Shown in pieces: positions 12,791 to 35,115 of a stretch of DNA of 64,000 nucleotides. Positions within the stretch are counted from its first letter, which is position 1. Each line of letters starts with the position of its first letter. The translations under genes were made by a program, and so were the position numbers. Origin of the DNA: Clostridiaceae bacterium Marseille-Q4143 (GTDB lineage: Bacteria > Bacillota > Clostridia > Lachnospirales > Lachnospiraceae); the NCBI GenBank assembly GCA_018228645.1, contig CP073693.1, positions 558,001 to 622,000 of the forward strand. The letters are read 5' to 3'. Below the pieces are notes generated by a model. That model searched no databases. It worked only from the letters and a program-made list of their open reading frames with translations, and had not been told where the DNA came from.

Positions 12791-12830
12791 CCAGTGAGTG
12801 AAATTTAACGATTCTCTCACTGGTTCTTTT
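12791..12830 (+). terminator. Terminator after XRE copy 1
   Basis: CCAGTGAG (12791-12798) pairs with CTCACTGG (12816-12823), followed by TTCTTTTC. The same terminator follows copy 2. Confidence 0.85.
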
Positions 12831-14424: not shown

Positions 14425-14524
14425 AATGCTTCCTCCTCTCCAAACATAAAAGCTGCCACTCAACGAATTTTTATCGTCGAAGTGACAGCTTTCTGTCATT
14501 ATGCACACCTTTGTAATGGTGCTT

Positions 14525-17043: not shown

Positions 17044-18285
17044 CTATTCCTTAACCATAGAAATCGGTGATTTTTCATCGAAATTCTCCTGGTTCAAAGC
17101 ATCATTCACTACCTCGAAAAGTTCCTCTGGTTTATTATACTTGACCCTCGCGTAAATGTCCATAGTTGTCTTACTATTCTCATGCCCTGCCAAATACTGA
17201 ACTGTCTTAGGGTCAACGCCCGCATAGAGCAGATTCGTGATGTAGGTATGCCGCAACAAGTGCGGTGTTACATCGAAATTCAGGGTATAGCGAATCTTGG
17301 GATTGTTCCTCTGCGTTGTTCCTAATGTCGGCTTGACGGTATATTTAATGCTCTGTCCATTCACATATTTATAGTAGGCTCTCTCTTTTGCAGAACGAAC
17401 AACTACATACTGCCAAACTCTTGTAAACTGAGAATAGGAAAGCGGCTGTCCCTCGCTGTCGGCAATCACATACTCCGATATGGAATTTGCTTTTGCTTCC
17501 CGCAGACAGTCCACCAGACACTTCGGAATGGGAATATCCCTTTTTGCTGCTTTTGTCTTTAGGACGGTAGAAATCACCGGCCTGTTATGCTCTGCACGCC
17601 ATGCACGTCTCACAGAAATATATGGGGTGGATTCATCTATGAATACACAGTCCCATTGCAATGCAAGAATTTCTTCCCGACGCAAGCCGGAATACAAACC
17701 AATCATAATAAAAAGATATGGCGGAAGCTCTTTCACCGTATCCAGCAGAATTGCAACCTGTTGATCTGTTAAGGCGTCTTTCTTTTTCGATGCTTTTCCG
17801 CCCTTTGCTGAAATTCCTACACACGGATTATCGGTTATCAGCTGACTGCGCTCTGCCGAATAAAACACACACTTAATCAGCATATTTACCGTATCATACA
17901 GTCCTTTCGATTTTTGAGACAGCGGAACAAGCGCCAGACGAATATCATCCGCAGTCACTTCCTCCATATACATATCTCCCAGAGAGTTGATGACATAATT
18001 CTTCATATTCTGTCTGTATCCTTTTATAGTAGCCGTAGACACTTTTGCTGACTGCATCAGCAGCCATTTCTCACAATACTCGGCAACCGTTGGATGCTTT
18101 CGGTGAAAGATGATCTCCTCCACCTGTCTCCGGGCCTCCAACTGCTTTTCATATAATTCTTCACAGGTGGTCGCATATAAGCTGACCTGCTTTCCATCGG
18201 CATCTGTAATTCTGGTTCTGTAATACAGTGTTCCTTTTCTTGTAACCGTTCCGTACTCTGGAACGCTTTGTTTTTTCTTAGCCAT
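17044..18285 (-). CDS. Tyrosine recombinase (integrase 1)
   Basis: A 413-residue Tn916-type integrase. An AP2-like/arm-binding N-terminus (GTVTRKGTLYYRTRI) and a SAM-like core-binding domain are followed by the catalytic domain with Arg in YSGLRREEILAL, HLLRHTYITNLL, His in LAGHENSKTTMDIYARV and the nucleophile Tyr in DIYARV. It cuts and rejoins att sites during integration and excision. It lies in tandem with integrase 2, 151 bases apart, and has no excisionase gene of its own beside it, so it may belong to another, partly lost element. Confidence 0.92.
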   Translation of the reverse strand: MAKKKQSVPEYGTVTRKGTLYYRTRITDADGKQVSLYATTCEELYEKQLEARRQVEEIIFHRKHPTVAEYCEKWLLMQSAKVSTATIKGYRQNMKNYVINSLGDMYMEEVTADDIRLALVPLSQKSKGLYDTVNMLIKCVFYSAERSQLITDNPCVGISAKGGKASKKKDALTDQQVAILLDTVKELPPYLFIMIGLYSGLRREEILALQWDCVFIDESTPYISVRRAWRAEHNRPVISTVLKTKAAKRDIPIPKCLVDCLREAKANSISEYVIADSEGQPLSYSQFTRVWQYVVVRSAKERAYYKYVNGQSIKYTVKPTLGTTQRNNPKIRYTLNFDVTPHLLRHTYITNLLYAGVDPKTVQYLAGHENSKTTMDIYARVKYNKPEELFEVVNDALNQENFDEKSPISMVKE

Positions 18286-18436: not shown

Positions 18437-19666
18437 TTATGCCTGTGCTGCATCCCACTGGGCAAATGCACCACCCATTGTTCTTACCAGCTCATCCGGT
18501 CTGTTGTATTTGACCTTTGCGTAAATATCCATCGTAATTTTACTACTCTCATGCCCCGCCAGGTATTGAACCGTTTTCGGGTCCACGGACGAATGAATCA
18601 GATTCGTAATGTATGTATGACGCAGCTGATGCGGTGTCACTTCAAAATCTAAGCTGTAAATCACTTTTCCGTTATGTGCTGCCTTTTCACCGAGGACCGG
18701 CGTAACCGTGTGCTTTACACGCTTTCCATCCTCGTAGCGATAATAGAAACGCTCCTTGACTGTTCGGGTCACAATGTACTGCCAAAGCCGCTTGAACTGT
18801 GTGTAGGACAGCGGATCGCCTTCCCGGTTCGGCACTACATATTCTGACTGTGAATTAGCTTTTGTCTCTTTCAGACAGTCCGCCAGGCAAACCGGCAACG
18901 GAATATTTCGATGCGCGGCTTTCGTTTTCAGCTCATCCAGAATCACCGGTCTGTTATTTTCCGTGTGCCATGCCCTGCGTACCGTTAAATAAGGGCAATC
19001 CACATCCAGATATACAGAATCCCATTTTAGGGCAAGAATTTCTTCTCGCCGCAATCCTGCATACAGCCCTAACATGACAAATACATACGGCGGAAGTCCC
19101 TGAATGGCATCCAGCAGTCTGGCGGCCTGTTCATCCGTCAATGCAGCTTTGTCCTTCTGCGGAACGCCTCCACCTTTGGCCGTAAGGTAAATCGTTGGGT
19201 TGTGATCAATAATCTTACTTTCCTTTGCTGCACGGAAAATGGATTTATACAGGATAACCACTGACTTATATACCGAAGCAGACTTCTCGGAAACAGGAAC
19301 AAGTGCAAGCTGAATGTCATCCAGTGTCACATCTGCCATCCGCATCTGTCCCAGTTCTTTTATAATGTGCCGTCTGACCTTTGAGGTATAATCTATCAGC
19401 GTGGTTGCCCTCACATGAACCGACTGCATCAAAAGCCATTTTTCACAGTAGTCTGCAACCGTCGGGGATTTCCGACAGAATGTATCGTTGTCGATCTGCT
19501 CTAATGCTCCCAACTCTTTATCATATAATTCTTCCGGTGTTCTCGCATAAAGGGCCACCAGTTTTCCATCTGCGTTCTGAACCCGCGTTCTATAATAATC
19601 TATGCCGTTAAGCGTAACTGTACCGTATTGTGGAATTGCTCTTTTTCTTTTTGCCAATTCCGTCAC
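18437..19666 (-). CDS. Tyrosine recombinase (integrase 2) of the second ICE
   Basis: A 409-residue integrase clearly related to integrase 1. Catalytic signatures: YAGLRREEILAL, HQLRHTYITNLIH and LAGHESSKITMDIYAKV. The excisionase gene at 19742-19972 lies just upstream in the same direction, and the sigma-like gene follows beyond it, the order seen at the integrase end of Tn1549-like ICEs. I therefore take this as the integrase of the ICE that extends to the right. No att site could be defined from one window. Confidence 0.92.
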   Translation of the reverse strand: MTELAKRKRAIPQYGTVTLNGIDYYRTRVQNADGKLVALYARTPEELYDKELGALEQIDNDTFCRKSPTVADYCEKWLLMQSVHVRATTLIDYTSKVRRHIIKELGQMRMADVTLDDIQLALVPVSEKSASVYKSVVILYKSIFRAAKESKIIDHNPTIYLTAKGGGVPQKDKAALTDEQAARLLDAIQGLPPYVFVMLGLYAGLRREEILALKWDSVYLDVDCPYLTVRRAWHTENNRPVILDELKTKAAHRNIPLPVCLADCLKETKANSQSEYVVPNREGDPLSYTQFKRLWQYIVTRTVKERFYYRYEDGKRVKHTVTPVLGEKAAHNGKVIYSLDFEVTPHQLRHTYITNLIHSSVDPKTVQYLAGHESSKITMDIYAKVKYNRPDELVRTMGGAFAQWDAAQA

Positions 19667-19741: not shown

Positions 19742-19972
19742 TCACACTCCAGCTCTGCGAGGTTTACGATAAGTTGCGTTCTTTTCTGCTGGCTTTGCTC
19801 TGTGGGTGCATTTTGCGATATACTCCTGAAGGCCCGCTGAAGTAAAGTACACACAGCCATTCTGCACATATTGCACATAAGAAATAAGACCATTGTTACG
19901 GGCCGCGTCCAGCGTTGCAATGCTGATACCTAAAATTTCTGCTGCTTCTTTTCGTGTAATAAGTTTTTCCAT
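19742..19972 (-). CDS. Excisionase-like helix-turn-helix protein
   Basis: A 76-residue DNA-binding protein (MEKLITRKEAAEILGISIAT), winged-helix of the HTH_17/MerR-like excisionase class, with a basic tail. Start ATG 19972 lies 12 bases from a GGAGG. It is 75 bases upstream of integrase 2 in the same direction, the usual xis-int pair. It should bend DNA at the att sites and tip the integrase towards excision. Confidence 0.82.
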   Translation of the reverse strand: MEKLITRKEAAEILGISIATLDAARNNGLISYVQYVQNGCVYFTSAGLQEYIAKCTHRAKPAEKNATYRKPRRAGV

Positions 19973-20034
19973 AAAGCATATTTCCTCCAATCTGTCAAGT
20001 TTGTCATCGTGTTTGTTCAAAGCCACATGAATAC

Positions 20035-20056
20035 GCTGGCAGCCGAAACTGCCAGC
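20035..20056. repeat. Perfect inverted repeat upstream of the excisionase gene
   Basis: GCTGGCAG (20035-20042) and CTGCCAGC (20049-20056) flank a six-base loop. No T-tract follows on either strand, so it is less likely a terminator than a protein site or part of a recombination site. Confidence 0.6.
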
Positions 20057-20089
20057 GCATGGTATCTGATTTTGAACAGGAAGCTGCAA

Positions 20090-20509
20090 ACGCTTCCTAT
20101 TTATATAACTCAGCTTTCATCACATTTGCCACGCCCCCTGACGATGGGAACACAACAGGTCTCCGTTGGCGCGGCTGTCATAACTCCGCAGCACCGTTCG
20201 TATCGTGTGCCGCAGGGTTCCCCCCAAGTCTTTGGCGGGCCGTGAGGAAGTATCTTTAAGCCCCCATGCAGTCATCGCGCCGAATCTGCCACAATCCGTT
20301 TTATGAAATCGTAGATCGCTCCGAAGCAGTTCTTTCATCACCTCCCTGACGGCTCCATCTTCGCGGCGTTTCACATTCGCTCGTACATGGGTTATGTACC
20401 TGTTGTGCTGTCTATTCGATTGTCAATGTACTGATGAAGGAGGAAAACTTGTCCTTCTTATTAACACTGACAAAAAAGGCAAAAAACAGGCGCATCAAAT
20501 GAAATTTTA
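20090..20509. other. Region without a supported gene, GC-rich
   Basis: Between the excisionase gene and sigma copy 2. Short open frames exist on both strands (20120-20374 leftward and 20143-20245 rightward), but none has a family match I recognise or clear coding support. The stretch is richer in G and C than its neighbours and may be an ICE end region with integrase arm sites, or the remains of a lost gene. Confidence 0.5.
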
Positions 20510-20923
20510 TCAAAAATATTTTACAAGCTGCTTTAATCCACGGCGGATACTGTCTCGGACACGGCTTGGGTCTACACCTTCTACTTCGGCAATTTCATTT
20601 ACCGCCATTCCCAGATAGTATCGGGCATAAATTCGCTTTGCCTGTTTCTCTGGCAGCTTCATCACAGCGGCATAGACCTGCTCCTGAAACTGTTTTTCCT
20701 CCAGAAGCATCTCCGGTGTTTGCGGCTTCAATAGCACCGCATTTTCAATGCCATTCTCGCAATCCAGAGAATACTGTGCTTTATAACGATACATCTTTCG
20801 CTCATACGCAGCCTCCGCACGTTCAGCTGCTCGAATAGTCTCCATTACTTCCTCTGTCACATCTACAAAAAAGTCTGTTGTATAAACATCAGGATAAAGT
20901 TCCCGAAGGTTAATTTTCTTCAT
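20510..20923 (-). CDS. Sigma-70 region-4-like regulator, copy 2
   Basis: A 137-residue protein differing from copy 1 only at a residue or two (DVYTT for DIYTT, MAVNEIAEVEG for MTVNEIAEVEG). Start ATG 20923 with GGAGGT. It is next to xis-int of the second ICE, so it is probably the native copy of that element. The leader upstream has diverged from copies 1 and 3 while keeping its hairpins. Confidence 0.85.
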   Translation of the reverse strand: MKKINLRELYPDVYTTDFFVDVTEEVMETIRAAERAEAAYERKMYRYKAQYSLDCENGIENAVLLKPQTPEMLLEEKQFQEQVYAAVMKLPEKQAKRIYARYYLGMAVNEIAEVEGVDPSRVRDSIRRGLKQLVKYF

Positions 20924-21385
20924 TATGTACCTCCATTTCGATTCACGGGTGATTGACGGGTGAATCGAATGGAGGCGGAGACCGACACCGGCAGACAACC
21001 GGGTCATCTCCGAAAAAATGGCAACAAAAAACGCCAACTTCCCATAACGGGAAATCGGCGCAACAAAAATACCTACTATTCTGCTGATTTAGATGGAACG
21101 ATAATACTGATAGATAGTCATACTCCCCCGGAGGAGGGGCAAAACTTTTTTTAGCTGGTGTAACTCATGGCTATTGTGAATGACAAAAATTGACACGGCG
21201 GCATCCTCCTATGTGCCGCCGTACCAGATTACAGGGTGTAGGGTCGTCGTTCATTTTAGATAGACGAAAGGAAACGGCGGCTCTGATTTTTTCAAAGCCA
21301 CCGTTGCAAAGTGCATAACAATATAGTCGCTGTACGATGGCTTTTTTTCTTTTGCCATCGTGCGGCAACTTTTTCACTTTTCTTT
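20924..21385 (-). ncRNA. Structured leader of sigma-like gene, copy 2
   Basis: The same hairpin series as copy 1 with changed sequence: ACGATGGC/GCCATCGT (21334-21341/21354-21361), GAAACGGCGGCT/AGCCACCGTTG (21271-21282/21297-21307), ACGGCGGCA/TGCCGCCGT (21195-21203/21214-21222) and CGCC/GGCG with TTCCC/GGGAA inside (21032-21060). The first stem differs from copies 1 and 3 by a C-G to T-A exchange in both arms. The third is a different stem at the same place. This leader receives the outward promoter at 21387-21417. Confidence 0.62.
21025..21060 (-). terminator. Attenuator-like terminator in sigma leader, copy 2
   Basis: The stem CGCC...GGCG with inner TTCCC/GGGAA ends on the minus strand in GTTTTTTG. 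It has the position and shape of the copy 1 terminator with a different stem sequence. Confidence 0.6.
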
Positions 21386-21386
21386 T

Positions 21387-21417
21387 ATCTTAACAGGCAA
21401 TCCTCACAGAAATGTCA
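21387..21417 (-). promoter_or_regulatory. Outward-facing response-regulator promoter into sigma leader 2
   Basis: On the minus strand TGACATTTCTGTGAGG (21402-21417), an 11-bp direct repeat of TGA-type half-sites, is followed after exactly nine bases by TAAGAT (21387-21392). The same box with the same nine-base gap precedes the ABC operon (24908-24938) and the regulator gene (26757-26787). It lies beyond the permease stop codon and its terminator and can only fire leftward into the sigma leader. Confidence 0.65.
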
Positions 21418-21449
21418 CGGACATACTCCATTTCGACAAAATAACAAGC

Positions 21450-21477
21450 TGAAATCTCACCAATCTGTGAGATTTCA
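21450..21477. repeat. Inverted repeat paired with the outward box
   Basis: TGAAATCTCAC (21450-21460) and GTGAGATTTCA (21467-21477) are perfect complements around six bases. A similar palindrome, AAATGTCAC-N6-GTGACATTT, lies at 24972-24995 at almost the same distance from the ABC box. Both contain half-sites like those of the box, so it may be an extra regulator site; a terminator role is the alternative. Confidence 0.55.
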
Positions 21478-21488
21478 AATTTTATGAG

Positions 21489-21522
21489 GAAAGCCGAGAG
21501 GAAATGCCTCCTCCCGGCTTTC
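21489..21522 (-). terminator. Terminator of the FtsX-type ABC operon
   Basis: GAAAGCCGAGAGG (21489-21501) pairs with CCTCCCGGCTTTC (21510-21522), with one G-T type mismatch. It lies 38 bases past the permease stop. Confidence 0.7.
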
Positions 21523-21560
21523 AATAGGTTTATGATTATCTATTGTAGCAATCTCTGTCG

Positions 21561-24194
21561 TTACTCCGAAGTCCTCAGCCGCTCCACCACAGTTCCCTTG
21601 TTAAAGAAATGGAGAACGATCAGCGGAATAACCACAGCCAGCAGCAGATAAAGCACACCAATGACCAGAACCGGAACCAATGTAATATTCAGAGTAAAGA
21701 ACCACATGGAAGGGCTATTCAATGCGCTCTTTAGCACTGTGACTGCCAGGATCGCTGCGACTGCTCCGCCGATAATGTCCGCACCTACGGCATAGTAGAT
21801 GCCCTCATAGACCGTCAAGCGGCGAAGCTGCTTGCCGGTCATACCGATGCTCTGCATGGTAGCAAACTCATGGCGGCGGGTGATGATGTTGGTAATAATC
21901 ATGTTGGCAAAGTTAATCAGTCCTGCAAAGGCCATGATGCAACCAATCAGACCGCCGATAACCAGGATCATGCTGCGGACCGAATCAAGCTGCTCTTTCA
22001 ACAGCTTGGTGGAAGTATAGGCAACCGAAGTATTTTCACTCACATAGCTGCTTAAAAATTCTTCCATCTGCGGCTGCAAGGCTTCATCCACATTGAATCC
22101 ATAAGTCAGCAGCGTGGGAGCGTCATAGATTTCCTTAAATACAGTGTCCGGCAGATACACAAAAGGAGCATCAGCGGCGATGTGCGCCTGGGCGGTGGTG
22201 CCTGTCGGCGTTTCGGTTTCCGTTCCCACGAGGATCGCTTTTGCAAGGATAGTGCTGGTTTTGACCAGTTCCCCATCCTTGTAGAAGGAAATGCTCTCTC
22301 CAACCTGTAACTGATCGGTCAGCGGAGTGTTCCTTGGTTCCTCTGTCAGTTTGTCCATGGGGCAGCCAATAATGACATATTCTCCGGTAGCCATTTTCTG
22401 CGTTAAGGTTTCGGCATCTTTTTCGCCTTCAAAAATACGCATATCAGCCCAGAAATTTTCGGAGGCTCCCATCACATTGCCAAAATAGCGCCTTTCGGTA
22501 TCAGAACTTGTGTACAGGCTATATCCCTGATAGCTTTGATTTACGACGCCTTCTTCCTCATGAAACAGCTCTATGCCGCTTAAATCTTCAAACCCATAGT
22601 CAACCAATACATTTCTATCGTCTTTTGTATTTCGGTAGAGATAGCGTTCATCCTCAACTCCGGGCTGTCCGGCAATCAGATCCACCGCCTGTTGTGAGAG
22701 CGTATCTTTATGGTGCTGAACGCTTTCCATTACATTAAATGCGGCTGAGTTATAGACATTAAAATCTGTTCTGGTGACACGGTTTACCCACTTTTCTTCA
22801 TCAAGGCTTTGCGTCACAATGATGATAGAGTTAAACAGGACGATGCACAGAAGCAGGGAAATAATGATGAACGCTGAACGCCGACGATTGCGGCCCAGGT
22901 TGGAAAAGGCCATACGGGACAGCTTTACCCCATTGGTTCGCTTGGCACTTCTCTTTTTATAGGCGTTCTGCTCGGTGTAGCGAATCGCCTCCAGAGGAGA
23001 AATCTTTGCCGCCTTTTTTGCAGGCTTCCTGGTGCTGATAAACACGGTCAGGATTGTAAAGAGAGCGGCGATAACAAAAATTAGCGGCGAGGTCGATACG
23101 GATGTACCCACCATAGAATATTCAAGGTTAATGATCTCTGTCACGATAGGAAGCAGCACCCAACCGGCAAAGAAACCGGCGATCAGACCAATAGGCAGTC
23201 CGATCAGCGTGAGCCAGACCGCCTGACGGTTCACAATGCCCTTGATCTGCCGTGTGGAAGTGCCAATCGTCCGCTGCAGGCCGTATTGACGAACATCCTG
23301 CATCACAGAAATATCAAAGATATTGTAGATCAGCAGGTATCCGCACACGACAAACATCAGGATAAATACAACAGCAAACACGATGGACTCTGATGAAGTC
23401 ACTCCCTGGGACATTTGATTTTCAGAGGCGAGAATGAAATTGTCTGCGCCCATATCCTCTGGATTGCCGCCAATGGAGTAAACGAACTCATTCAACTGCT
23501 GCTGAACATTTGCTTTATTCTTCAGCACGACATCGGAAAAAGTAACGCCGGACATTTCATGGTCTACCGCATAAGTGTTCTGGACCACATCGGGGTTTTC
23601 CTTTATAAACTGCTCTGAAACAGTCGCAACGCTCACAGAGTCATTGCTTGCTTCCCACCAGCCGGAAAGCACCATATCATAATGATAAGTTTTCCCCCGC
23701 AGTTCAAATTCCAGCGGAACCGCTGCGCCAATCTTTGGTTCTACACCCAGCGCCTTCAGCGCCAAATCCGTGGTGGCGATCTCATTCGCTTTCTCCGGTG
23801 CAGCTCCATGAGTAGGCACACAGAAGGTCAGCTCCTGCTGCACACTGTCCGCATAATTGATCTCAATGGAATGGCTGGAAGTATTGCTTGCATAGCCAAT
23901 GATGCGCCGGTGACCTGCCTGCTCCACAAAATCGCTGTTTACAAGCTGCTCGTACTGTTCCTCCGTCATATATCCTAAAGTGCCATCCGCCTTGCTGCCT
24001 TTCTGCATTTGCAGAGAGAGCTGGATGGAGGACGCCATATTGAACGCCAGGGAAGTGATAGAGGTAAATAGGAAAGCAGTCAGGATAATTGCCAGCAGTG
24101 CAGCCAGATTGCGTACCTTATTCTTTTTGAAATAGCGTTTGGATAGCTTGGTAATTACTTCGGAATTATTGTTGCCAAATAAAATGTCATTCAT
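21561..24194 (-). CDS. FtsX-family ABC permease, antimicrobial-peptide type
   Basis: An 877-residue permease. One helix near the N-terminus (NLAALLAIILTAFLFTS), an extracytoplasmic domain of about 200 residues, a first FtsX block of three helices (about residues 265-385), a linker with a further helix (AFIIISLLLCIVLFNSIII), a second large outer domain, and a final FtsX block (about residues 745-870). This is the layout of large FtsX/MacB-like permeases that work with an ATPase and a two-component system in peptide resistance. It is 14 bases downstream of the ATPase gene. Confidence 0.85.
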   Translation of the reverse strand: MNDILFGNNNSEVITKLSKRYFKKNKVRNLAALLAIILTAFLFTSITSLAFNMASSIQLSLQMQKGSKADGTLGYMTEEQYEQLVNSDFVEQAGHRRIIGYASNTSSHSIEINYADSVQQELTFCVPTHGAAPEKANEIATTDLALKALGVEPKIGAAVPLEFELRGKTYHYDMVLSGWWEASNDSVSVATVSEQFIKENPDVVQNTYAVDHEMSGVTFSDVVLKNKANVQQQLNEFVYSIGGNPEDMGADNFILASENQMSQGVTSSESIVFAVVFILMFVVCGYLLIYNIFDISVMQDVRQYGLQRTIGTSTRQIKGIVNRQAVWLTLIGLPIGLIAGFFAGWVLLPIVTEIINLEYSMVGTSVSTSPLIFVIAALFTILTVFISTRKPAKKAAKISPLEAIRYTEQNAYKKRSAKRTNGVKLSRMAFSNLGRNRRRSAFIIISLLLCIVLFNSIIIVTQSLDEEKWVNRVTRTDFNVYNSAAFNVMESVQHHKDTLSQQAVDLIAGQPGVEDERYLYRNTKDDRNVLVDYGFEDLSGIELFHEEEGVVNQSYQGYSLYTSSDTERRYFGNVMGASENFWADMRIFEGEKDAETLTQKMATGEYVIIGCPMDKLTEEPRNTPLTDQLQVGESISFYKDGELVKTSTILAKAILVGTETETPTGTTAQAHIAADAPFVYLPDTVFKEIYDAPTLLTYGFNVDEALQPQMEEFLSSYVSENTSVAYTSTKLLKEQLDSVRSMILVIGGLIGCIMAFAGLINFANMIITNIITRRHEFATMQSIGMTGKQLRRLTVYEGIYYAVGADIIGGAVAAILAVTVLKSALNSPSMWFFTLNITLVPVLVIGVLYLLLAVVIPLIVLHFFNKGTVVERLRTSE

Positions 24195-24208
24195 AGTCCC
24201 GCCCCCCT

Positions 24209-24874
24209 TTACTGCACGATCTTACCATCCTCGATCCGAATGATGCGGTCGGCAAGCTGGGCGATCTCACTGTTATGGGTAATCATCACGAGGGTCTGAT
24301 GGAATTTCTGGCTTGTGGTTTTCAGAAGCCCCAGCACATCGGCGCTGGTCTTGCTGTCCAGATTGCCAGTCGGTTCATCAGCCAGGACGATTGCAGGCTT
24401 TGACACCAAAGCGCGGGCAATGGCTACGCGCTGCTGCTGGCCGCCGGAAAGGTTATTGGGCATATTGTTCAGCTTATCCTCCAGCCCCAGCATCTGAACG
24501 ACTTCTTTCATAAACTTCTTGTCTACCTTGTTTCCGTCCAGCTCCACAGGCAGCACGATATTTTCGTAGACATTCAGCACCGGAACCAGATTGTAGTTCT
24601 GGAAGATGAAGCCAATCTTTCTCCTACGGAAGATGGTAAGCTGCTCATCTTTCAATGTTGAGAGTTCACGTCCATCCACAATAACCTTGCCAGAGGTCGG
24701 CACATCCAACCCACCAATCATATTCAGCAGTGTAGATTTACCGCTGCCGGAGGTTCCTACGATGGCAACAAATTCGCCCTTTTCAATGGAGAGGGTCACA
24801 CCATCCAAGGCTCTGGTAATGTTCGGTTTTGCGCCATAATATTTTTTTAGTTCAGTCGTTTGCAAAATGCTCAT
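24209..24874 (-). CDS. ABC ATPase of the FtsX-type transporter (LolD/MacB class)
   Basis: A 221-residue ATPase. Walker A is [13 protein letters not shown], the signature [15 protein letters not shown], Walker [13 protein letters not shown] and the switch MITHNSE: the set typical of LolD/BceA subunits. I place the start at ATG 24874 ([14 protein letters not shown]) with AAAGGATGG upstream; ATG 24886 abuts that site. A response-regulator promoter lies at 24908-24938, so the operon is probably induced by the two-component system encoded just upstream. Confidence 0.9.
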
Positions 24875-24907
24875 AAAGAACACCATCCTTTCTTTTTGAT
24901 AAACCCA

Positions 24908-24938
24908 TTGTAACGACCAAACCTCACAGAAATGTCAT
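24908..24938 (-). promoter_or_regulatory. Response-regulator promoter of the FtsX-type ABC operon
   Basis: Minus-strand box TGACATTTCTGTGAGG (24923-24938), a nine-base gap, then -10 TACAAT (24908-24913). It is identical in box and spacing to the outward site at 21387-21417. There is no -35, as expected for an activator-dependent promoter. Confidence 0.7.
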
Positions 24939-24971
24939 GAGCCACAAAAAATTTCTGCTAAATTCGGCCCC

Positions 24972-24995
24972 AAATGTCACGAACCTGTGACATTT
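24972..24995. repeat. Palindrome between kinase gene and ABC promoter
   Basis: AAATGTCAC (24972-24980) and GTGACATTT (24987-24995) are perfect inverted repeats. CGGCCCC and CGGGGCG lie outside and may extend it into a terminator for the kinase operon. The half-sites also match the regulator box. Confidence 0.55.
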
Positions 24996-25018
24996 CATTT
25001 TTTCGGGGCGTGCCTGCT

Positions 25019-26050
25019 CTACTTTCGGAGCAGGAAAACAGAAAAGGTTGAGCCTTTCCCAACTTCCGATACCACCCGGATATAACCGCCCTGCAAGGTC
25101 ACAATCTCACGAGCCAGATACAGGCCAATCCCAATACCGTCCACATCATGCACCGCATCTTCCCGGTAAAACCGCTTGAAAATCGTTCCCTGGTGCTGCT
25201 CTGAAATGCCAATGCCGGTGTCGGCAATGTCGATCTTCACATACATTTCCCAGCCTTCCACCGACACATGGATCTGCCCGCCTGCCGGAGTGTACTTCAC
25301 TGCGTTATCCAGAATGTTAAACAGGGCTTCGCTTGTCCATTTTCTATCATGGCGTGCATCCAAATGCTCCGGGCATTCCACCTGCACATCTATTTGTTTC
25401 TTTTCGGCATTGAGCAAAATCCCGCCCAGGGCAGCGGCAAGGGTATCATAAACCGGCTGCTGTTTTTGCTCCAGTGAAATGACTCCTGTTTCCAGGCGGG
25501 AGGTTTTAATCATGGCTTGCATGAGGAAGTCCAGCTTATCAAGCTGGCTGGCCTGGGCTGTCAGAAATTCCTTTTGCTTCTGCGGGGGAACCTCGTTTTC
25601 AAGCAGCGTGTTGTTGATCATCTTCAAGTTGGCAATCGGGGTCTTGACCTGATGGGAGATGTCAGAAATCAGCTCTTGCAGGTCAGCCCGTTCCTTTGCG
25701 ATGCTGTTTTTATTTTCCTGCATGACCTCGTACAGTCGCCCCAGCCGGTAGTTGATTTTATAGAACAGGTTTTCTTCTTCAACCGTCTGCTTGGGCTGCA
25801 TATTTTCGGAGAGCATATCATCCATCTGACCACAAAAGGCATCGGAGAACCGGACCAGCTTCCGACGAATCAGCGCCACAAAGCAGATGACGCAGAGCAG
25901 CACAAAAAGACTGAACAGGAACACACACCGGACAGCGGTTATATTCTGGGTCAGCAGATGAACAGCGGTGCAGACTGCACCAACCGCCAGCAGCAAAAGC
26001 GTTCCCAAAAGGACGCAGGCTTTGTTGATGGAGAGTTTTCGCATATTCAT
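25019..26050 (-). CDS. Sensor histidine kinase of the FtsX-type cassette
   Basis: A 343-residue kinase. Two N-terminal helices are separated by only a few residues (LLGTLLLLAVGAVC and CVFLFSLFVLLCVICF), so there is no real sensor domain, as in intramembrane-sensing kinases that read the state of their ABC transporter. The H-box is ISHQVKTPIANL; the HATPase domain has NILDNAVKYT, DTGIGI and GIGIGLYLA. Start ATG 26050 overlaps the regulator stop as ATGA, with GGAGGGG upstream. I infer transporter-linked sensing of a peptide; the ligand is unknown. Confidence 0.88.
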   Translation of the reverse strand: MNMRKLSINKACVLLGTLLLLAVGAVCTAVHLLTQNITAVRCVFLFSLFVLLCVICFVALIRRKLVRFSDAFCGQMDDMLSENMQPKQTVEEENLFYKINYRLGRLYEVMQENKNSIAKERADLQELISDISHQVKTPIANLKMINNTLLENEVPPQKQKEFLTAQASQLDKLDFLMQAMIKTSRLETGVISLEQKQQPVYDTLAAALGGILLNAEKKQIDVQVECPEHLDARHDRKWTSEALFNILDNAVKYTPAGGQIHVSVEGWEMYVKIDIADTGIGISEQHQGTIFKRFYREDAVHDVDGIGIGLYLAREIVTLQGGYIRVVSEVGKGSTFSVFLLRK

Positions 26051-26733
26051 TTCGATGCCCCTCCGATCCACATATAGCCCATACCGTACACCGTCTTGAT
26101 GTACTGGCGTCCATCCGTTTCAATTTTATTCCGCACCCGGCTGATGGCCGCAGTCAGGGCGTGTTCATCCACAAAGTTCCCATCGGCATCCCACAGCTTT
26201 TCAAGCAGCACCTGCCTGGTCAAAACATTCTGCGGATTTTTGGTCAGGATTTTCAACAGCCGGTATTCCAACGGAGTGAACACCAGCGCCTTACCGGACA
26301 GAGAAGCAGTCATCTCCGAGAAATTGATGGATAGTGCGCTATCCTCATAACAATCCCCGCCGCCAGATTGTTTTGCCAGCCGCCCCAGCACCACGGACAG
26401 CTTTTTTTGAAAGACGCTCATAGGAAATGGCTTGGTCACATAGTCCTCTGCGCCCAACTCATATCCTTTGAGCATATCGCTCTCCATATCATTTGCGGTC
26501 AGGAAGATCACCGCCGTATCCGGCCGGCGCTCTTTTACCTCCCGGCAGAAATCAAAGCCATTCCCATCTGGCAGGTTTACATCCAGCACGATCAGGTCAT
26601 AATCCTGCTTAGTCAGAAAGTTGCTAGCTGCTGATTTTGTCAATACAGAGTCCACGACATAGCCCGCAGTATACAGGTTATAGCACAAAGTATTATTCAA
26701 AAGCCGGTCATCCTCGACTACTAAAATTCGCAA
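26047..26733 (-). CDS. OmpR-family response regulator of the FtsX-type cassette
   Basis: A receiver domain (VVEDDRLL, Asp in LIVLDVNLPDGNGF, IFLTAN, VTKPF) and a winged helix (LTAAISRVRNKIETDGRQ). The start is unusual: a TTG at 26733 is well spaced from AAGGAG (26744-26749), whereas the in-frame GTG at 26742 lies one base from it and no ATG is available; the protein is then 228 residues. It is presumably the factor that binds the three TGACATTTCTGTGA boxes, one of them its own promoter. Confidence 0.88.
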   Translation of the reverse strand: MRILVVEDDRLLNNTLCYNLYTAGYVVDSVLTKSAASNFLTKQDYDLIVLDVNLPDGNGFDFCREVKERRPDTAVIFLTANDMESDMLKGYELGAEDYVTKPFPMSVFQKKLSVVLGRLAKQSGGGDCYEDSALSINFSEMTASLSGKALVFTPLEYRLLKILTKNPQNVLTRQVLLEKLWDADGNFVDEHALTAAISRVRNKIETDGRQYIKTVYGMGYMWIGGASK

Positions 26734-26756
26734 TTGTATCACACTCCTTCATTCTT

Positions 26757-26787
26757 AGTGTAGCATCCAAATGTCACAGAAATCTCA
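26757..26787 (-). promoter_or_regulatory. Autoregulatory promoter of the response-regulator gene
   Basis: Minus-strand box TGAGATTTCTGTGACA (26772-26787), nine bases, then -10 TACACT (26757-26762). It is the third member of the set with identical geometry. The two half-sites are swapped relative to the other two boxes. Confidence 0.65.
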
Positions 26788-26795
26788 CGAGAGGA

Positions 26796-26972
26796 TTATT
26801 TTTTTGTATTTTTGAAACGACGGTCTGCCGGTTTCTCCGCATCCTTGGGAATCAGCCAAATGGTAGCCATCTTCACAGCACCGGGGATACGCCCACCGGC
26901 ACACAGATAATTGATCTGCCTTGGGGTAACACCCCATTTTTCACTTGCTTCTTTCAGCGTCATATAATCCAT
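26796..26972 (-). CDS. Small helix-turn-helix protein heading the two-component operon
   Basis: A 58-residue excisionase/MerR-like HTH protein (MDYMTLKEASEKWGVTPRQI ... GAVKMATIWLIPKDAEKP). Start ATG 26972 with GGAGGG. It lies 62 bases upstream of the regulator gene in the same direction and has its own consensus promoter (26996-27024). A close relative heads the next two-component operon at 32645-32833 with the same promoter. It does not adjoin an integrase, so I take it as a cassette transcription factor rather than an excisionase; this is uncertain. Confidence 0.75.
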   Translation of the reverse strand: MDYMTLKEASEKWGVTPRQINYLCAGGRIPGAVKMATIWLIPKDAEKPADRRFKNTKK

Positions 26973-26995
26973 ATAGTTTCCCTCCAATATGGTTT

Positions 26996-27024
26996 ATTAT
27001 ATTTCCTTTGCTCGAAGAATACAA
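26996..27024 (-). promoter_or_regulatory. Consensus promoter of the small HTH gene
   Basis: TTGTAT (complement of 27019-27024), 17 bases, TATAAT (complement of 26996-27001). The same hexamers and spacing occur at 32854-32882, and TTCGAG within the spacer is shared too. Confidence 0.8.
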
Positions 27025-27035
27025 GCTTGCAAATA

Positions 27036-27079
27036 GGGCGCAAAGCCCTGTGCCAGAAGCACTATGTGGCCTTGCGCCC
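27036..27079 (-). terminator. Terminator of sigma-like gene copy 3
   Basis: GGGCGCAA (27036-27043) pairs with TTGCGCCC (27072-27079), just past the stop codon at 27094. Confidence 0.75.
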
Positions 27080-27093
27080 TTTGTTATTCTATC

Positions 27094-27507
27094 CTAAAAA
27101 TACTTTGCCAGCTGCTTCAGACCGCGCCGGATGCTGTCACGGACACGGCTTGGGTCTACACCCTCCGCTGCGGCGATCTCACTCACACGCATACCCAGGT
27201 AATACCGGGCATAGATCCTCTTGGCCTGCTTCTCTGGCAGAGCCATCACAGCGGCATAGAGCTGCTCCCGCAGCTGCTTTTCCTCCAGAAGCATCTCCGG
27301 TGTTTGCGGCTTCAACAGCACCGCATTTTCAATGCCATTCTCGCAATCCAGAGAATACTGTGCTTTATAACGATACATCTTTCGCTCATACGCAGCCTCC
27401 GCACGTTCAGCTGCTCGAATAGTCTCCATTACTTTCTCTGTCACATCTACAAAAAAGTCTGTTGTATAAACATCAGGATAAAGTTCCCGAAGGTTAATTT
27501 TCTTCAT
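27094..27507 (-). CDS. Sigma-70 region-4-like regulator, copy 3 (mosaic)
   Basis: A 137-residue protein of the same family. The first two thirds of the gene are nearly identical in DNA to copies 1 and 2, but the last third (from about 27290 downward) differs at many third-codon positions and reads MRVSEIAAAEGVDPSRV. This is the pattern of a recombination or gene-conversion event inside the gene. Its 3' end and terminator match the remnant at 12180-12290. Start ATG 27507 with GGAGGT. Confidence 0.85.
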   Translation of the reverse strand: MKKINLRELYPDVYTTDFFVDVTEKVMETIRAAERAEAAYERKMYRYKAQYSLDCENGIENAVLLKPQTPEMLLEEKQLREQLYAAVMALPEKQAKRIYARYYLGMRVSEIAAAEGVDPSRVRDSIRRGLKQLAKYF

Positions 27508-27940
27508 TATGTACCTCCATTTCGATTCACGGGTGATTGACGGGTGAATCGAATGAAGGCGGAGACCGACACCGGCAGACAACCGGGTCATCTCCGAAAA
27601 AATGGCAACAAAAAACGCCAGATTTCCGTGAGGGAAAACTGGCGCGCCAAGAACAGCCATTATTATACTGAATTACATAGAACGATAATGCCGATGCAAT
27701 GTTATACTTGCCCGGAGGAGGAGCAATGCTTTTTTTAACTGATGTAGATCATGTGAGCTTTGAAAAAGCAAACGAGACACGGAAAAATAACCTCCAATCG
27801 GCTACCGTGTCCCTGCAAGTCGTCATTGATTTGTGCAAACGCAAAGAAACGGCGGCTCTGAAAATCAAAGCCGCCGTTTCAAATGGGCGTGTCAAATTGT
27901 CTGCTCTACGACGGCTTTTTTTCTTTTGCCGTCGTCCGGC
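27508..27940 (-). ncRNA. Structured leader of sigma-like gene, copy 3
   Basis: Hairpins as in copy 1: ACGACGGC/GCCGTCGT (27908-27915/27928-27935), GAAACGGCGGCT/AGCCGCCGTTTC (27847-27858/27870-27881), GACACGG/CCGTGTC (27776-27782/27805-27811) and the terminator stem GCCAG/CTGGC (27617-27621/27639-27643) followed on the minus strand by GTTTTTTG. A TATAAT reads leftward at 27662-27667 with the XRE-like site at 27682-27695. The leader ends within a few bases of the lipoprotein stop codon, so no outward regulator box is left in this copy. Confidence 0.6.
27609..27643 (-). terminator. Attenuator-like terminator in sigma leader, copy 3
   Basis: GCCAG (27617-27621) pairs with CTGGC (27639-27643), with TTTCC/GGGAA continuing the stem; GTTTTTTG follows on the minus strand. 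Confidence 0.65.
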
Positions 27941-27946
27941 AGAGTA

Positions 27947-28408
27947 TTATTCAATATTTAATTCAATGTTTCCAGTGAAATTCTCACATTCAATGCCAAT
28001 ATAATTTCCACCATCAGGAAGTGTAATTGTGTCACTATAAGTTCCGGTTGCTTCAATCAATGTGACTGCTTCATCAGATCCAGAAATCCAAAATACTTTT
28101 GCAGTACCTTCCGTAATCTCCAAGGTGCAATCAATGGACAGCTCCTTACCGGCTTCTCTCTTTATGGAAGTTCCTCCGAACAAATACTCTGTACCTGAAA
28201 AGTTCGCATAATCAGCCGTATAAGTCCCTGTATAATCATCAATTCCTTTTTCTTTTTCCCCTTGCAGTGACGATTTCCCTGTCAGTTCTATGGAGCCCGC
28301 AGATTGAACAATGTTATTGTAATGATTGAGAATTTCATCTTTTGAACAGCCAGCAAGCATAAAACTTCCCACAAGGACGAATGTTAATGCTAAAACTATT
28401 TTCTTCAT
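27947..28408 (-). CDS. Small surface lipoprotein of the third immunity cassette
   Basis: A 153-residue protein with signal peptide and lipobox MLAGC at about residue 21. The mature part is polar and beta-rich (GTYTADYANFSGTEYLFGG ... VFWISGSDEAV). It is the last gene of the leftward ATPase-permease-permease operon, seven bases after the second permease. By position it may bind the peptide at the cell surface, like other immunity lipoproteins, but I see no NisI repeat in it. Confidence 0.7.
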   Translation of the reverse strand: MKKIVLALTFVLVGSFMLAGCSKDEILNHYNNIVQSAGSIELTGKSSLQGEKEKGIDDYTGTYTADYANFSGTEYLFGGTSIKREAGKELSIDCTLEITEGTAKVFWISGSDEAVTLIEATGTYSDTITLPDGGNYIGIECENFTGNIELNIE

Positions 28409-28415
28409 AAAATCA

Positions 28416-29195
28416 TCACCAGCCTTTCTTTGGAGCTACCTTTTTGGCCTTTTTCTTTGTTTGGGTTGCTTCTCGTTCTTTCATGCACAAAATCAAGATG
28501 GCAGAAATAACGACAGCAAGCGCAAGACTGCAAGAACAGGTTCCGATATTCCAGTTGACTGCGGTATCATAGCTACGGTAGCCTACCATTCCAAGACTTG
28601 CGGTAATCGGATAAAGGTTTGCTAATGTCATATTTCCTGCGGCAAACATCCCTCCATATCCATAGACAAAAGCAATGATTACACCGACTAAAAAGCTGCC
28701 TGCCCTCCGACAAGTAAGAGCGATAATCGGCAGAACCGCAAGATATAAAAAGAAATTAACCGCAGTAATCTGCAAGGCTGCTTTTAGAGCTAAGGAAATC
28801 TCAAAGCCGGGAAATCTCACAATCATTTCTGCTATGATTGTAAACAGACTGCATATCAACCCGAAAATAATAGACAATACGCCGCACACAATCAATTTTC
28901 CGGTCAGCAGTTTCTTAAAAGAGATCGGCACAGTCAGAATATTTTTCAATGTATCATCCGTCTGCTCGCGAGAAATCATATATCCAGCAATTAGGCTGAT
29001 ACACATCGGAAAAATCATGGACATATTGTTTTTGATGACCTGTTCTGTAAGATAGGCAAAATCCCAAACGGAACCATCATTCGCCATAGAGGTAAACAAG
29101 GTCAGCAGGACGGATAGGAGCATGAGTGCAACGCCCGCCCAAAGGATATGATACCTTTTCAATTTATAAAATTCTGTTTTTACAATGCGAACCAT
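28416..29195 (-). CDS. ABC-2 type permease, third immunity cassette (second permease)
   Basis: A 259-residue membrane protein (MVRIVKTEFYKLKRYHIL) with six hydrophobic segments and a basic C-terminal tail (KKKAKKVAPKK). The family is that of ABC-2 permeases in bacitracin/lantibiotic exporters. It is two bases after the preceding permease gene. Confidence 0.82.
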   Translation of the reverse strand: MVRIVKTEFYKLKRYHILWAGVALMLLSVLLTLFTSMANDGSVWDFAYLTEQVIKNNMSMIFPMCISLIAGYMISREQTDDTLKNILTVPISFKKLLTGKLIVCGVLSIIFGLICSLFTIIAEMIVRFPGFEISLALKAALQITAVNFFLYLAVLPIIALTCRRAGSFLVGVIIAFVYGYGGMFAAGNMTLANLYPITASLGMVGYRSYDTAVNWNIGTCSCSLALAVVISAILILCMKEREATQTKKKAKKVAPKKGW

Positions 29196-32882: not shown

Positions 32883-32909
32883 GTTTATCACCAATCGCAG
32901 CTTTATATA

Positions 32910-33005
32910 ATCGGCATAATCGTACAGCTTGTCAGGCATAATAAGGTCATTCCATCATATAAACCGGAACGATACAATATTATTGAGGTGAACGATTATG
33001 CCGAT
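32910..33005. promoter_or_regulatory. XRE gene control region with repeated operator-like sites, copy 2
   Basis: ATCGGCATAATCGT (32910-32923) and AACGATTATGCCGAT (32991-33005, over the start codon) are inverted versions of one motif; ACCGGAACGATAC (about 32972-32984) is a weaker match. The same motif is seen in the sigma leaders (5261-5274, 27682-27695). This suggests that the XRE protein binds here and there. Confidence 0.5.
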
Positions 33006-33354
33006 TGATGATTTGACTGCTTTAGGGCAAAAAATGCGGGAAGCCCGAAAGAAAAAAGACCTGACACAACAGGAGCTTGCGGATCTGAGCCATGTTTCTG
33101 TAAAGCAAATCGCCAATATCGAAAAGGGGAAAATGAATCCTTCTTATTTAATTTTAAGAGCATTGGCAAAGGTCCTGCACATCTCTTTAGATACACTTAT
33201 AAATCCAGATGTTTCTCTGGAGGATGAGGGTGTCAATCAGATGAAAATGTTTTATTCCAGCTGTCCGCCAGAAATGCGTGACACCCTGTTGCATCACACC
33301 CAGGAAACGGTGAAAGAACTGACAGAGTTGTCCGAGAAATTTGAAACGAATTGA
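32998..33354 (+). CDS. XRE-family regulator, copy 2 (intact)
   Basis: A 118-residue protein: HTH_3 domain (LGQKMREARKKKDLTQQELA, VSVKQIANIEKGKMNPSY) and an intact C-terminal tail (PPEMRDTLLHHTQETVKEL). It is read away from the relaxase and against the cassette genes. Such XRE proteins act as repressors or regulators of transfer in Tn1549-like ICEs. GAGGTG precedes the ATG, and a terminator follows. Compared with copy 1 it lacks the one-base deletion. Confidence 0.88.
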   Translation: MPIDDLTALGQKMREARKKKDLTQQELADLSHVSVKQIANIEKGKMNPSYLILRALAKVLHISLDTLINPDVSLEDEGVNQMKMFYSSCPPEMRDTLLHHTQETVKELTELSEKFETN

Positions 33355-33355
33355 G

Positions 33356-33395
33356 CCAGTGAGTGAAATTTAACGATTCTCTCACTGGTTCTTTT
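33356..33395 (+). terminator. Terminator after XRE copy 2
   Basis: CCAGTGAG (33356-33363) pairs with CTCACTGG (33381-33388), followed by TTCTTTTC. Confidence 0.85.
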
Positions 33396-33576
33396 CATTT
33401 TCGGAGAAAAGAGGCAAGCAATGCCTGTGTTAATACACACAGGCCCGCAGAGAAGAAAATCCCTTTGTGATTTTCCTCTCCGCTTGCTTGTTGAGGGCAG
33501 CGCCCCCAAGCCCCTTTGAACACAGAATTTCATTCTGTGGCTGCGCGTTCTGCGAACGCTTTTGACCAGGACCAGC
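33396..33576. other. Hairpin-rich block between XRE and relaxase genes, copy 2
   Basis: The same succession of short palindromes as at 12831-13011, with only a handful of base changes, and no gene. It is a candidate origin of transfer or structured relaxase 3' region. No nic site can be named. Confidence 0.4.
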
Positions 33577-34989
33577 TTACCGCTGGCCGTGGTCTTTTTC
33601 TTTTTCAACATCCTGTTCTACCTCCATTTTCAGCACTCGATCTACATTTGCCTTTGCCGTTAAAAGCTCCCGCATTTCCTCACGGGAACGCCGGTACTCG
33701 GCATAGGTCTTTTTCTTTTCTTCCAGCAATTTCGCGTACTCCGTCTGCAACTCTTTGACCTTGGGAAGTTTCTTGACTCCCATCTCATCAAAGGCATTCT
33801 TAGCAGCCTGGTGGAGCAGAATTTCTTCCTCATGTTCCTCCCGGAATTTCTTAGAGTAACCCGCCTTGCGGTATGCCACATAGACCTCACGGGTCTTGGC
33901 ATAATTTACGATGTGAGTACGCAGAACAGCGATCTCTGCCATGCGCTTTTCAGCCGCTTTGATCTGCGCCGAAAGATCATTGTGATGTGCCGTGGCAGCC
34001 GCAGCCTTTTCTTCCAAAACCGCATACTCCAGCAGGTTATGCTCTGACAGGTAATTCATGGTCTGCGCCATTTGCTTCAGATTGAAAACCTTGGCCCATC
34101 GAGCATAGCCAGCACCTTTTCCAGCCTGCAATTTTGCCTGAATGTCCACCAGCAGATTGATCTTTGGCGGCTCTGCCTGTGCGACTGTTTTCTTTCGCGG
34201 GGTATGTGCTTTCTTCCCGGAGAGAACTGCCCGCAAATCTTCCAATCCATATCCTTCGCCCAGACTGTCCATGCGGGCGGCTTTCTCCCAACCAGAGAGC
34301 TTCAGTCGATACGATTTTCCGCGCTTTGAGACTTCACAACCATATTCTCGCAACAGCTTCAGCAGTTCTTCAAAGTCAGCAGGACTTTGTGATAATGCGT
34401 TGTCAATCGCCACACGAAGCAGCTCTCGGTGAGATGGCTTTGCCTGATCGCCCAGCCATTTGTTATAGCTCTTTCCGTGAAGTTTCGGATTCTCTACAAT
34501 GGACAGTCCATTCTCAATACAGATGGTGTCACTTAGCCGACGAACCGCCTTGGTGCTGCCCCAAAAGTTTCGGAACTTCCGGTCATATTCTAAGCTGACC
34601 GATGACCAGATAATGTGATTATGAATGTGCGACTTGTCTATGTGAGTGCAGACCACAAAGGCATGATTGCCTTTAGTAAAACGCTTTGCAAATTCTACGC
34701 CCAGCCGGTTTGCTTCTTCCTGGGTAATCTCACCAGGGCGGAAGGACTGGCGCACATGATAGGCAATCACATCATCTGTACCACGCACTCGTCCGGTAGC
34801 GGCAATGTACTGCCGCTTTGCCAGAAGGAACTCCGCATCCGCAGTCCGGCTGTCACACGCATAGCCGGTAATGAGCCTGCCGTTATCTGTTTTCTTTGGA
34901 TTGGCCACATAGTCGATGATGTCACTGATTGCCCGACTCTCTGTGCGGCCTTTGCCGACATGAAGCGGCATGATTCTTGTAGTTGCCAT
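33577..34989 (-). CDS. MobA/VirD2-type relaxase, copy 2
   Basis: A 470-residue relaxase with the histidine motif CTHIDKSHIHNHIIW and the same domain layout and length as copy 1. Differences are scattered substitutions (MPLHVGK for MPFHVGK, KLHGKSYNK for KPYGKSYNK). Start ATG 34989 with GGAGGACC. This copy is still linked to MobC, VirB4 and the remaining transfer genes to the right. Confidence 0.9.
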   Translation of the reverse strand: MATTRIMPLHVGKGRTESRAISDIIDYVANPKKTDNGRLITGYACDSRTADAEFLLAKRQYIAATGRVRGTDDVIAYHVRQSFRPGEITQEEANRLGVEFAKRFTKGNHAFVVCTHIDKSHIHNHIIWSSVSLEYDRKFRNFWGSTKAVRRLSDTICIENGLSIVENPKLHGKSYNKWLGDQAKPSHRELLRVAIDNALSQSPADFEELLKLLREYGCEVSKRGKSYRLKLSGWEKAARMDSLGEGYGLEDLRAVLSGKKAHTPRKKTVAQAEPPKINLLVDIQAKLQAGKGAGYARWAKVFNLKQMAQTMNYLSEHNLLEYAVLEEKAAAATAHHNDLSAQIKAAEKRMAEIAVLRTHIVNYAKTREVYVAYRKAGYSKKFREEHEEEILLHQAAKNAFDEMGVKKLPKVKELQTEYAKLLEEKKKTYAEYRRSREEMRELLTAKANVDRVLKMEVEQDVEKEKDHGQR

Positions 34990-35115
34990 AATAGAAGGTC
35001 CTCCTCTCATAAATATTTTTGTTTTCGCTGAACTCTTTGCTTCTATCGTTGCAATAACTTTCTCCGCTGGGTATAATAAAAAAGAATATTCTACAACCTC
35101 AAAGGAGGGATTTCT

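Follow-up and report, generated by a model that had tools for sequence, protein, structure and literature searches.

A candidate response-regulator promoter between a two-component/ABC transporter cassette and the sigma-like gene of a conjugative element in Clostridiaceae bacterium Marseille-Q4143

We analysed a 64-kb stretch of the genome of Clostridiaceae bacterium Marseille-Q4143 (contig CP073693.1, positions 558,001 to 622,000), hereafter the window, with coordinates counted from its first letter. Its open reading frames (ORFs) and their Pfam matches identify it as part of a Gram-positive conjugative element. This element carries a cassette whose genes lie on the minus strand in the order response regulator (26047-26742, OmpR/PhoB-type, with Response_reg and Trans_reg_C), histidine kinase (25019-26053, with HisKA and HATPase_c found on a longer ORF to 26071), ABC transporter ATPase (24209-24886, ABC_tran) and FtsX-type permease (21561-24194, 877 aa with two FtsX stretches). 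Next comes a unit ending at 20510, made up of a structured leader and a sigma-like gene of 137 aa (20510-20923, Sigma70_r4_2, 2.2e-9). Downstream of it, on the same strand, are a helix-turn-helix gene (19742-19972, HTH_17, 8.1e-7), probably an excisionase gene by its position, and two tyrosine recombinase/integrase genes (18437-19666 and 17044-18285), both with Phage_integrase matches.

Analysis of the cassette revealed three promoter-like sites on the minus strand, each with a box nine bases before a −10 sequence. The first, P3 (21387-21417), lies behind the permease gene and faces the sigma-like gene; its box is at 21402-21417 and its −10 sequence, TAAGAT, at 21387-21392. The second precedes the ABC operon (24907-24937; box 24922-24937, TACAAT at 24907-24912) and the third the regulator gene (26757-26787; box 26772-26787, TACACT at 26757-26762). 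An earlier account made from these letters without database searches (the sequence-only reading) had proposed the three boxes with their nine-base spacers, and all of them were found. Its positions for the P3 and regulator sites are correct, but its ABC box (24923-24938) is off by one base. It overlooked that the box is an 11-bp direct repeat, reading GTGACATTTCT GTGAGGATT in register at P3, and that an inverted repeat lies upstream of both P3 and the ABC promoter. The 16-mer TGACATTTCTGTGAGG is identical at these two promoters; the box of the regulator promoter is TGAGATTTCTGTGACA, with its half-sites swapped. The tandem half-sites overlap the −35 position, and the direct repeat ends nine bases before the −10.

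With up to three mismatches, the 16-mer has five matches in the window against 0.57 expected, a number reached by none of 100 shuffles. The two additional matches, at 23301-23316 inside the permease gene and at 52145-52160 on the plus strand, both fail a fuller model consisting of the 11-bp direct repeat, the spacer and the −10 with at most one mismatch. This model was adopted because the core alone is barely above chance: the 14-base core with two mismatches, weak by itself, occurs seven times in the window against a mean of 2.53, with one of 100 shuffles as high. The fuller model has exactly three matches in the window. In 53 sources (938,301 bases, some near-identical or duplicate) it has 75, whereas three single-base shuffles averaged 0.33.

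P3 and the ABC promoter have in common an upstream inverted repeat of the box half-site, which the regulator promoter lacks. It is located at 21450-21477 for P3, where 10 of 10 arm bases match, and at 24972-24995 for the ABC promoter, and in both the half-site is 42 bp from the box. Among relatives, the inverted repeat was found 42 bp from the box in all 13 P3-type promoters, which amount to about seven distinct sequences (those of the window, L094, L001, L003, L009 and L010 are near-identical copies, as are those of L095 and L097). It was also found in 17 of 19 ABC promoters, ten at 42 bp and seven at 32-33 bp, our script detecting none at those of L102 and L103, and in all four second-ABC promoters (one at 42 bp, three at 32 bp). 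None of the 12 regulator promoters compared has it. These lists were made by hand from matches to the fuller model; they do not include near-identical copies or the one-mismatch CGGACATTT class, ten boxes reading CGGACATTTCTGTGACATTT ahead of ABC genes. Distances of 42 and 32-33 bp are whole turns of DNA, which suggests that P3 and the ABC promoters carry two regulator-bound sites on one DNA face. The half-sites of the regulator promoters stand in swapped order in 11 of the 12 (L118 differs).

Most P3-type promoters have a spacer of their own, TTATTYTGTCGAAA or near it, which the ABC promoters do not have, and P3 is therefore not a recent copy of the ABC promoter. Mean pairwise identity among eight P3-type promoters is 0.88 in the 44 motif columns and 0.57 in the 70 others, a difference that none of 20,000 permutations equalled; two pairs among the eight are close, and the motif columns were defined from the same promoters.

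A search of ten whole genomes with a strict, N-free 17-base box gave 26 matches, 25 of them in the cassette locus (seven of these at the sigma unit), while a reversed control pattern had no match in the same genomes. The 26th match (G546:C45) lies outside the cassette contigs. In genome G607 (locus L106), where the regulator and kinase are 54% and 56% identical, the box reads AGGACATTTCTGCAACA. This sequence has four copies in that whole genome, all in the cassette: one at the sigma unit as P3, and one each before the regulator gene, the ABC gene and a small ORF behind the kinase gene. No match was found in seven other genomes. The upstream arm has also changed but keeps its spacing, the box being 42 bp away at P3 and 32 bp away at the ABC promoter, and it is absent at the other two copies. 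A site that follows its regulator's specificity would most simply be a working member of the regulon, and chance hardly accounts for this single co-change of box and regulator.

The relatives used for recurrence and REARRANGEMENT came from a permease search of GTDB genomes (nine loci) and viral contigs (one). A search with the P3 region of 391 genomes of the class gave 15 with any match, most of which involved just the first leader hairpin or short pieces. In kinase searches, 20 of 391, 38 of 397 and 12 of 297 genomes had a match above the chosen thresholds, and viral contigs gave two loci; 40 regions of kinase-search carriers were taken in, and many places, at 49-53% identity and nearly all below, were left out. 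Some loci are duplicates (L011 is the contig of L003, and L114 that of L008) or nested (L012 inside L097, L013 inside L115).

In these loci most matches to the fuller model sit before the regulator gene, before the ABC gene, or 450-499 bases before a gene with sigma-70 region 4. The exceptions are P3 of L001; a match in L104 that is followed by the permease gene as the first one recognised; L008/L114, with a truncated sigma-like gene (229 bases); a second-ABC-type promoter at 6639 of L096, with no recognised ABC gene behind it and a sigma-like gene as the next match at 813 bases; and one-mismatch matches before unrelated regulators in L108 and L130. L118 (4262-6830) is a further exception, with a duplicated ABC promoter and, inserted between the kinase and ABC genes, a block of genes whose first member resembles an immunity-type protein by eye.

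A tblastn search of 68 sources with three sigma-like queries found 27 sigma-like genes. The window itself holds three copies of the sigma-like unit, at 4.7, 20.5 and 27.1 kb. A box is present within 900 bases upstream in 13 of the 27 genes (12 of 26 without the duplicate L114); for intact genes its distance to the start codon is 482-531 bases. The other 14 include the window's two further copies and the gene of L106, whose box is diverged. P3-type promoters occur in at least six arrangements among the relatives, nearly always facing a gene with sigma-70 region 4 about 0.5 kb away. They stand behind the same permease in the window, L003, L009, L010, L094 and, at 76%, L004; behind another permease or a second ABC unit in L095/L097, L096 and L117; and with a diverged regulator in L106. 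In L008 and L115, P3 is divergent from the regulator gene yet still faces the first leader hairpin and the sigma-like gene. The other permeases and these divergent cases indicate that P3 stays with the sigma-like unit as the order of the cassette changes. No P3 was found where the cassette is followed by other DNA (L006, L007, L100), and the contig of L005 stops about 150 bases past the permease gene. The box variant CGGACATTTCTGTGACATTT was seen before the ABC gene in ten cassettes with more distant kinases (L111, L112, L113, L119, L121, L122, L126, L130, L131 and L132), possibly another diverged regulator class; the regions taken from these ten yielded no sigma-like gene.

Between P3 and the sigma-like gene lies a leader of about 0.45 kb (20924-21382) that folds at −172 kcal/mol (z −8.8), lower than all of 100 shuffles. 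On the minus strand it contains, in order, a conserved hairpin with an A-rich loop (hp1, 21326-21369), a conserved GC-rich hairpin (hp2, 21274-21304), a hairpin holding the AGGAGG and start codon of a leader ORF (hp3, 21195-21222), this ORF of 35 codons with a GTG start (21089-21196, ...LHQLKKV...), a hairpin with a T run that resembles an intrinsic terminator (hp4, 21031-21061), and a long hairpin adjoining the ribosome-binding region of the sigma-like gene (hp5, 20930-20975). We aligned 18 leaders (17 distinct), chosen by the hp1-loop pattern and a sigma-like gene behind. The two helices of hp1 have 94.0% and 96.3% of cells paired, with both sides changed in 3 of 13 pairs, and hp2 has 99.5%, with both sides changed in 2 of 12. 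Taken together, hp1 and hp2 have 97.4% of cells paired and 17 cells changed on both sides, compared with 6.8 by shuffling. Paired cells, cells changed on both sides and score each beat 500 of 500 shuffles; the remaining two of five measures were unremarkable, pairs with a both-side change being matched by 45 and pair types by 195 of the 500. Over the whole leader, both-side changes occur in 17 of 45 pairs. Nine of these are in hp4, where 9 of 13 pairs are kept with both sides changed in at least one sequence.

An ORF with a Shine-Dalgarno-like sequence runs through an A-run in 21 of 22 leaders examined, including those of pCF10 and the bcrABD plasmid; its KK is partly built in, because the search required the A-run. 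The A-run (KK codons) is of a slippery type and is found in leader ORFs of elements with different sigma-like genes, the reading beyond it being variable. Frameshifting or ribosome stalling there is possible.

A crude scan for consensus sigma-70 promoters found none in 20400-21700, against 2.6 in shuffles, and the sigma-like unit may therefore depend on upstream transcription. Judging from the layout, it may be transcribed by read-through when it lies behind other cargo, and from P3 when it lies behind this cassette. In the 27-kb copy of the window, an ORF (27947-28408) ends just before hp1. In an Enterococcus plasmid (NZ_CP110291.1, L135:5575-6423), bcrR-bcrABD is followed after about 25-30 bases by an hp1 leader, scoring 122 bits with our model R1, and by a sigma-like gene that shares 45% identity with the window's. 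As laid out, this gap leaves no room for a promoter, and the cargo would read through into the hp1 leader.

The central proposal of the sequence-only reading, a promoter through which the cassette's regulator would act on the sigma-like gene, is well supported by the architecture that P3 shares with the ABC promoter, by its recurrence, by the near-exclusivity of the strict pattern and by the one co-change. With a probability of roughly 80%, we take P3 to be a regulator promoter kept by selection for the element's sigma-like unit.

Several points weigh against it. The loci were partly found through the cassette or the leader, and the sample is thus biased to carriers. Exclusivity covers close copies only, because variant boxes, the ABC box of G526 among them, escape the strict pattern, and co-change was seen in one relative only. 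Neither of the window's other two sigma-like genes has a box, and L052 and L053, which have near-identical arrangements, possess the cassette and a sigma-like gene further downstream with no box or hp1 there. Downstream of the intact P3 in L001 come half of hp1 and then other DNA, with no sigma-like gene. In L106 an ORF of 60 residues lies between P3 and hp1, and P3 could serve this ORF. The P3 inverted repeat comes up as terminator-like in a terminator scan of the minus strand, for a transcript from the permease gene; it could therefore be a hairpin and not an operator, and part of its conservation could derive from that. The scan for consensus promoters misses P3 itself and would miss other activated promoters. 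Since hp4 lies between P3 and the sigma-like gene and may stop most transcripts, P3 alone may not suffice; a second condition may come in through hp4 and the leader ORF. Finally, by Pfam, the sigma-like protein has region 4 only.

Some of these points would fit P3 being the last cassette promoter, serving any cargo gene that follows, with the sigma-like unit a bystander placed next to the cargo. The L001 and L106 arrangements are of this sort, and leader-sigma units also lie without a box behind unrelated cargo, namely in the window's 5- and 27-kb copies and behind bcrABD on the Enterococcus plasmid. We nevertheless regard this as unlikely. Of 15 boxes (L114 excluded) without a match to the regulator, the ABC gene or the permease in the next 200 bases, 13 have a sigma-like gene as the next match, the one at 6639 of L096 included; in L008 and L115, P3 lies elsewhere than behind the cassette, yet hp1 and the sigma-like gene follow it; and cassettes followed by other DNA lack P3.

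A rather unlikely reading is that P3 gives a short leader transcript stopping at hp2 or hp4, with this RNA or the leader peptide as the product and the sigma-like gene hardly affected. The strong fold of the leader, the covarying terminator hp4 and the frequent leader ORF would all agree with this, but the attenuator-like layout implies conditional read-through. The sigma-like gene behind all 18 aligned leaders is no evidence here, because the leaders were chosen in that way.

It is quite improbable that the regulator represses P3, so that the signal turns the element down. The sign of regulation cannot be read from the sequence, but the position of the box over the −35 and the spacing of the inverted repeat are as in the ABC promoter, for which the analogy of resistance ABC operons leads us to expect activation. 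P3 could also be a chance match, or an ABC promoter duplicate that no longer works and whose inverted repeat is just a terminator hairpin. These readings could point to the identical 16-mer and the terminator-like score, but we rejected them on the column constraint, the own conserved spacer, the fixed 42-bp distance, the exclusivity, and the co-change of box and arm in L106.

If P3 is a regulator promoter for the sigma-like unit, the sensor kinase would pass a signal, presumably from the cell envelope, to the response regulator. The regulator would then bind the inverted repeat and the −35-overlapping direct repeat at the ABC promoter and P3, probably activating both, and the direct repeat alone at its own promoter. 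Transcripts from P3 would enter the attenuator leader, with hp1, hp2, the leader ORF starting in hp3 and the terminator hp4. If hp4 were passed, the sigma-70-region-4 protein would be expressed, and transcription continuing beyond it would extend into the HTH_17 gene and both integrase genes, with a possible effect on excision or transfer. The cargo two-component system would thus control an Orf7-like module of the element via an attenuator, with P3 at the position of Porf7. This suggests that what the cassette senses could also switch on the element. Of the claim that P3 raises element activity, which goes further, we can say that the chances look even.

The signal may be peptide stress, as the sequence-only reading proposed. 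Hydropathy of the kinase showed two hydrophobic helices (13-31 and 44-62) with about 12 residues between and no large extracytoplasmic domain, and the kinase looks intramembrane-sensing, but the permease had seven sequence matches in the PDB, to MacB, LolC/LolF, YtrF and 5xu1-type chains (E 2e-4 to 5e-3). We considered it as a peptide transporter; support went no further than this family resemblance.

The closest known arrangement is the Tn916/Tn1545 module (Porf7, orf7, orf8, canT, xis, int), which has, in the same order and strand, a leader hairpin with an A-rich loop, a KK leader ORF, a sigma-70-r4 gene, an HTH gene and the integrase gene; the window likewise has a sigma-70 region 4 gene behind a structured leader. 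The Porf7 promoter of Tn916 drives the conjugation genes once the element has excised, and canT is situated between orf8 and xis (PMC11658703); tetracycline relieves attenuation and stimulates excision of Tn916 (PMC9632896). What differs here is the promoter before the leader, which has a box belonging to a cargo two-component regulator.

The Tn916-type copy of pCF10 has the order sigma-like, HTH, excisionase, integrase, with matches to the SQ2397 leader and pemK RNA. The Rfam family SQ2397 (RF03532), described as 'cis-regulator of HTH transcription factor', corresponds to the leader in front of the Tn916-type sigma-like gene there (L134:4478-4707), and this leader scores 229.8 bits. The window leader matches it weakly (26.1 bits with a gathering threshold of 100; E 0.25 and 0.02) and is not a member, and Rfam on 19900-28500 gave sub-threshold matches only. 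Our model R1, built on hp1-hp2 of window-type leaders, gave 11.2 bits (E 0.27) at the pCF10 leader and higher scores at three other places in that locus; for this reason we do not claim sequence homology between the two leaders.

The pemK RNA (RF02913) was found behind Orf7-type genes in L117 (17257-17383), L115 (7527-7624) and pCF10 (L134:5927-6027, between orf8 and xis), and from its position the family may be the canT antiterminator. It is above gathering in L117, L115, L018, L023 and pCF10, reaches 32.0 bits in L003/L011 against a gathering threshold of 34.8, gives an insignificant match in the window (16.4 bits, E 2), and was not found at gathering in L095, L096, L106 or L004. The sigma-like genes of L003, L115 and L117 form one group, that of L117 being 38% identical to the pCF10 copy. 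L117 and L115 combine P3 with a gene of this Orf7 group and, on that gene's far side, a pemK RNA match, and L117 also has an orf8-type HTH_16 gene. No HTH_16 gene was identified behind the window's sigma-like gene in the ORF lists, on which Pfam was not run for each ORF. The window's gene belongs to a different group, being 45% identical to the gene behind bcrABD, and its unit does not pass the strict Rfam tests; the unit would thus be Tn916-like in its working and not a member.

Other systems resemble the cassette in part. In CTnDOT (tetQ-rteA-rteB-rteC), an element-borne two-component system carried with a resistance gene controls a further regulator, which controls excision (PMC1976400); that system is from Bacteroides, is tetracycline-induced and acts via RteC, whereas here boxes also precede the regulator's own gene and the ABC operon. 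Bce-like modules (BceRSAB, PsdRSAB, ApsRSAB) similarly unite an OmpR-type regulator, an intramembrane-type kinase and an ABC transporter in one locus, with a boxed ABC promoter. They differ in the permease, which here is the 877-aa protein with two FtsX stretches and has no BceB chain among its seven PDB matches, and in the box, which by eye does not read as the published AnnTTACnAnnnnGTnAG (PMC10858260). Two-component systems, ABC transporters and sigma-factor-like genes occur together in conjugative transposons of C. difficile, where the role of the sigma-like proteins was posed as a question; a regulator box linking them is absent from the available part of that account (PMC3158075). The traR gene of Tn4371-family integrative and conjugative elements also coordinates cargo expression and transfer, through a regulator of LysR type (PMC11448139).

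In titles and the beginnings of abstracts, with most subscription papers outside this scope, we found no regulator-box link of a cargo two-component system to an orf7-type gene. New here would be a cargo-regulon promoter in the place of Porf7; the kind of control is already known from Tn916 with tetracycline and CTnDOT with RteAB. If P3 works as proposed, an inducer, likely a cell-envelope-active agent, would raise an export pump and an element control gene together in gut Clostridia, so that selection and spread answer to one signal. This offers a testable answer to why elements pair two-component/ABC cassettes with sigma-like genes. A broader proposal, somewhat short of an even bet, is that the hp1-hp4 leader with the sigma-like gene forms a docking port, whose transcription is supplied by whichever resistance or stress cassette precedes it. 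Supply would come by read-through, as behind bcrABD in Enterococcus and in the window's 27-kb copy, or, here, from a regulator promoter that changes with its regulator. Were this true, cargo exchange would re-programme which environmental signal activates the mobile element.

Compared in near mode with plasmid and phage collections, the 7.3-kb cassette gave short matches in five plasmid records only and no phage match. Elsewhere in the window, also on the minus strand, we found a coupling protein (60779-62254), a TraG/VirB4-type ATPase (56570-59038), a topoisomerase (51126-53234) and a relaxase (33577-35010). Besides the three sigma-like units, the relaxase region is present twice, at 12333-14427 and 32895-34992 with 95% identity, which makes the element a composite or nested one. 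At 5622-8362, an IS3-type transposase ORF (6442-7350, by eye) appears to split a histidine-kinase gene into two pieces (5622-6110 and 7307-8362).

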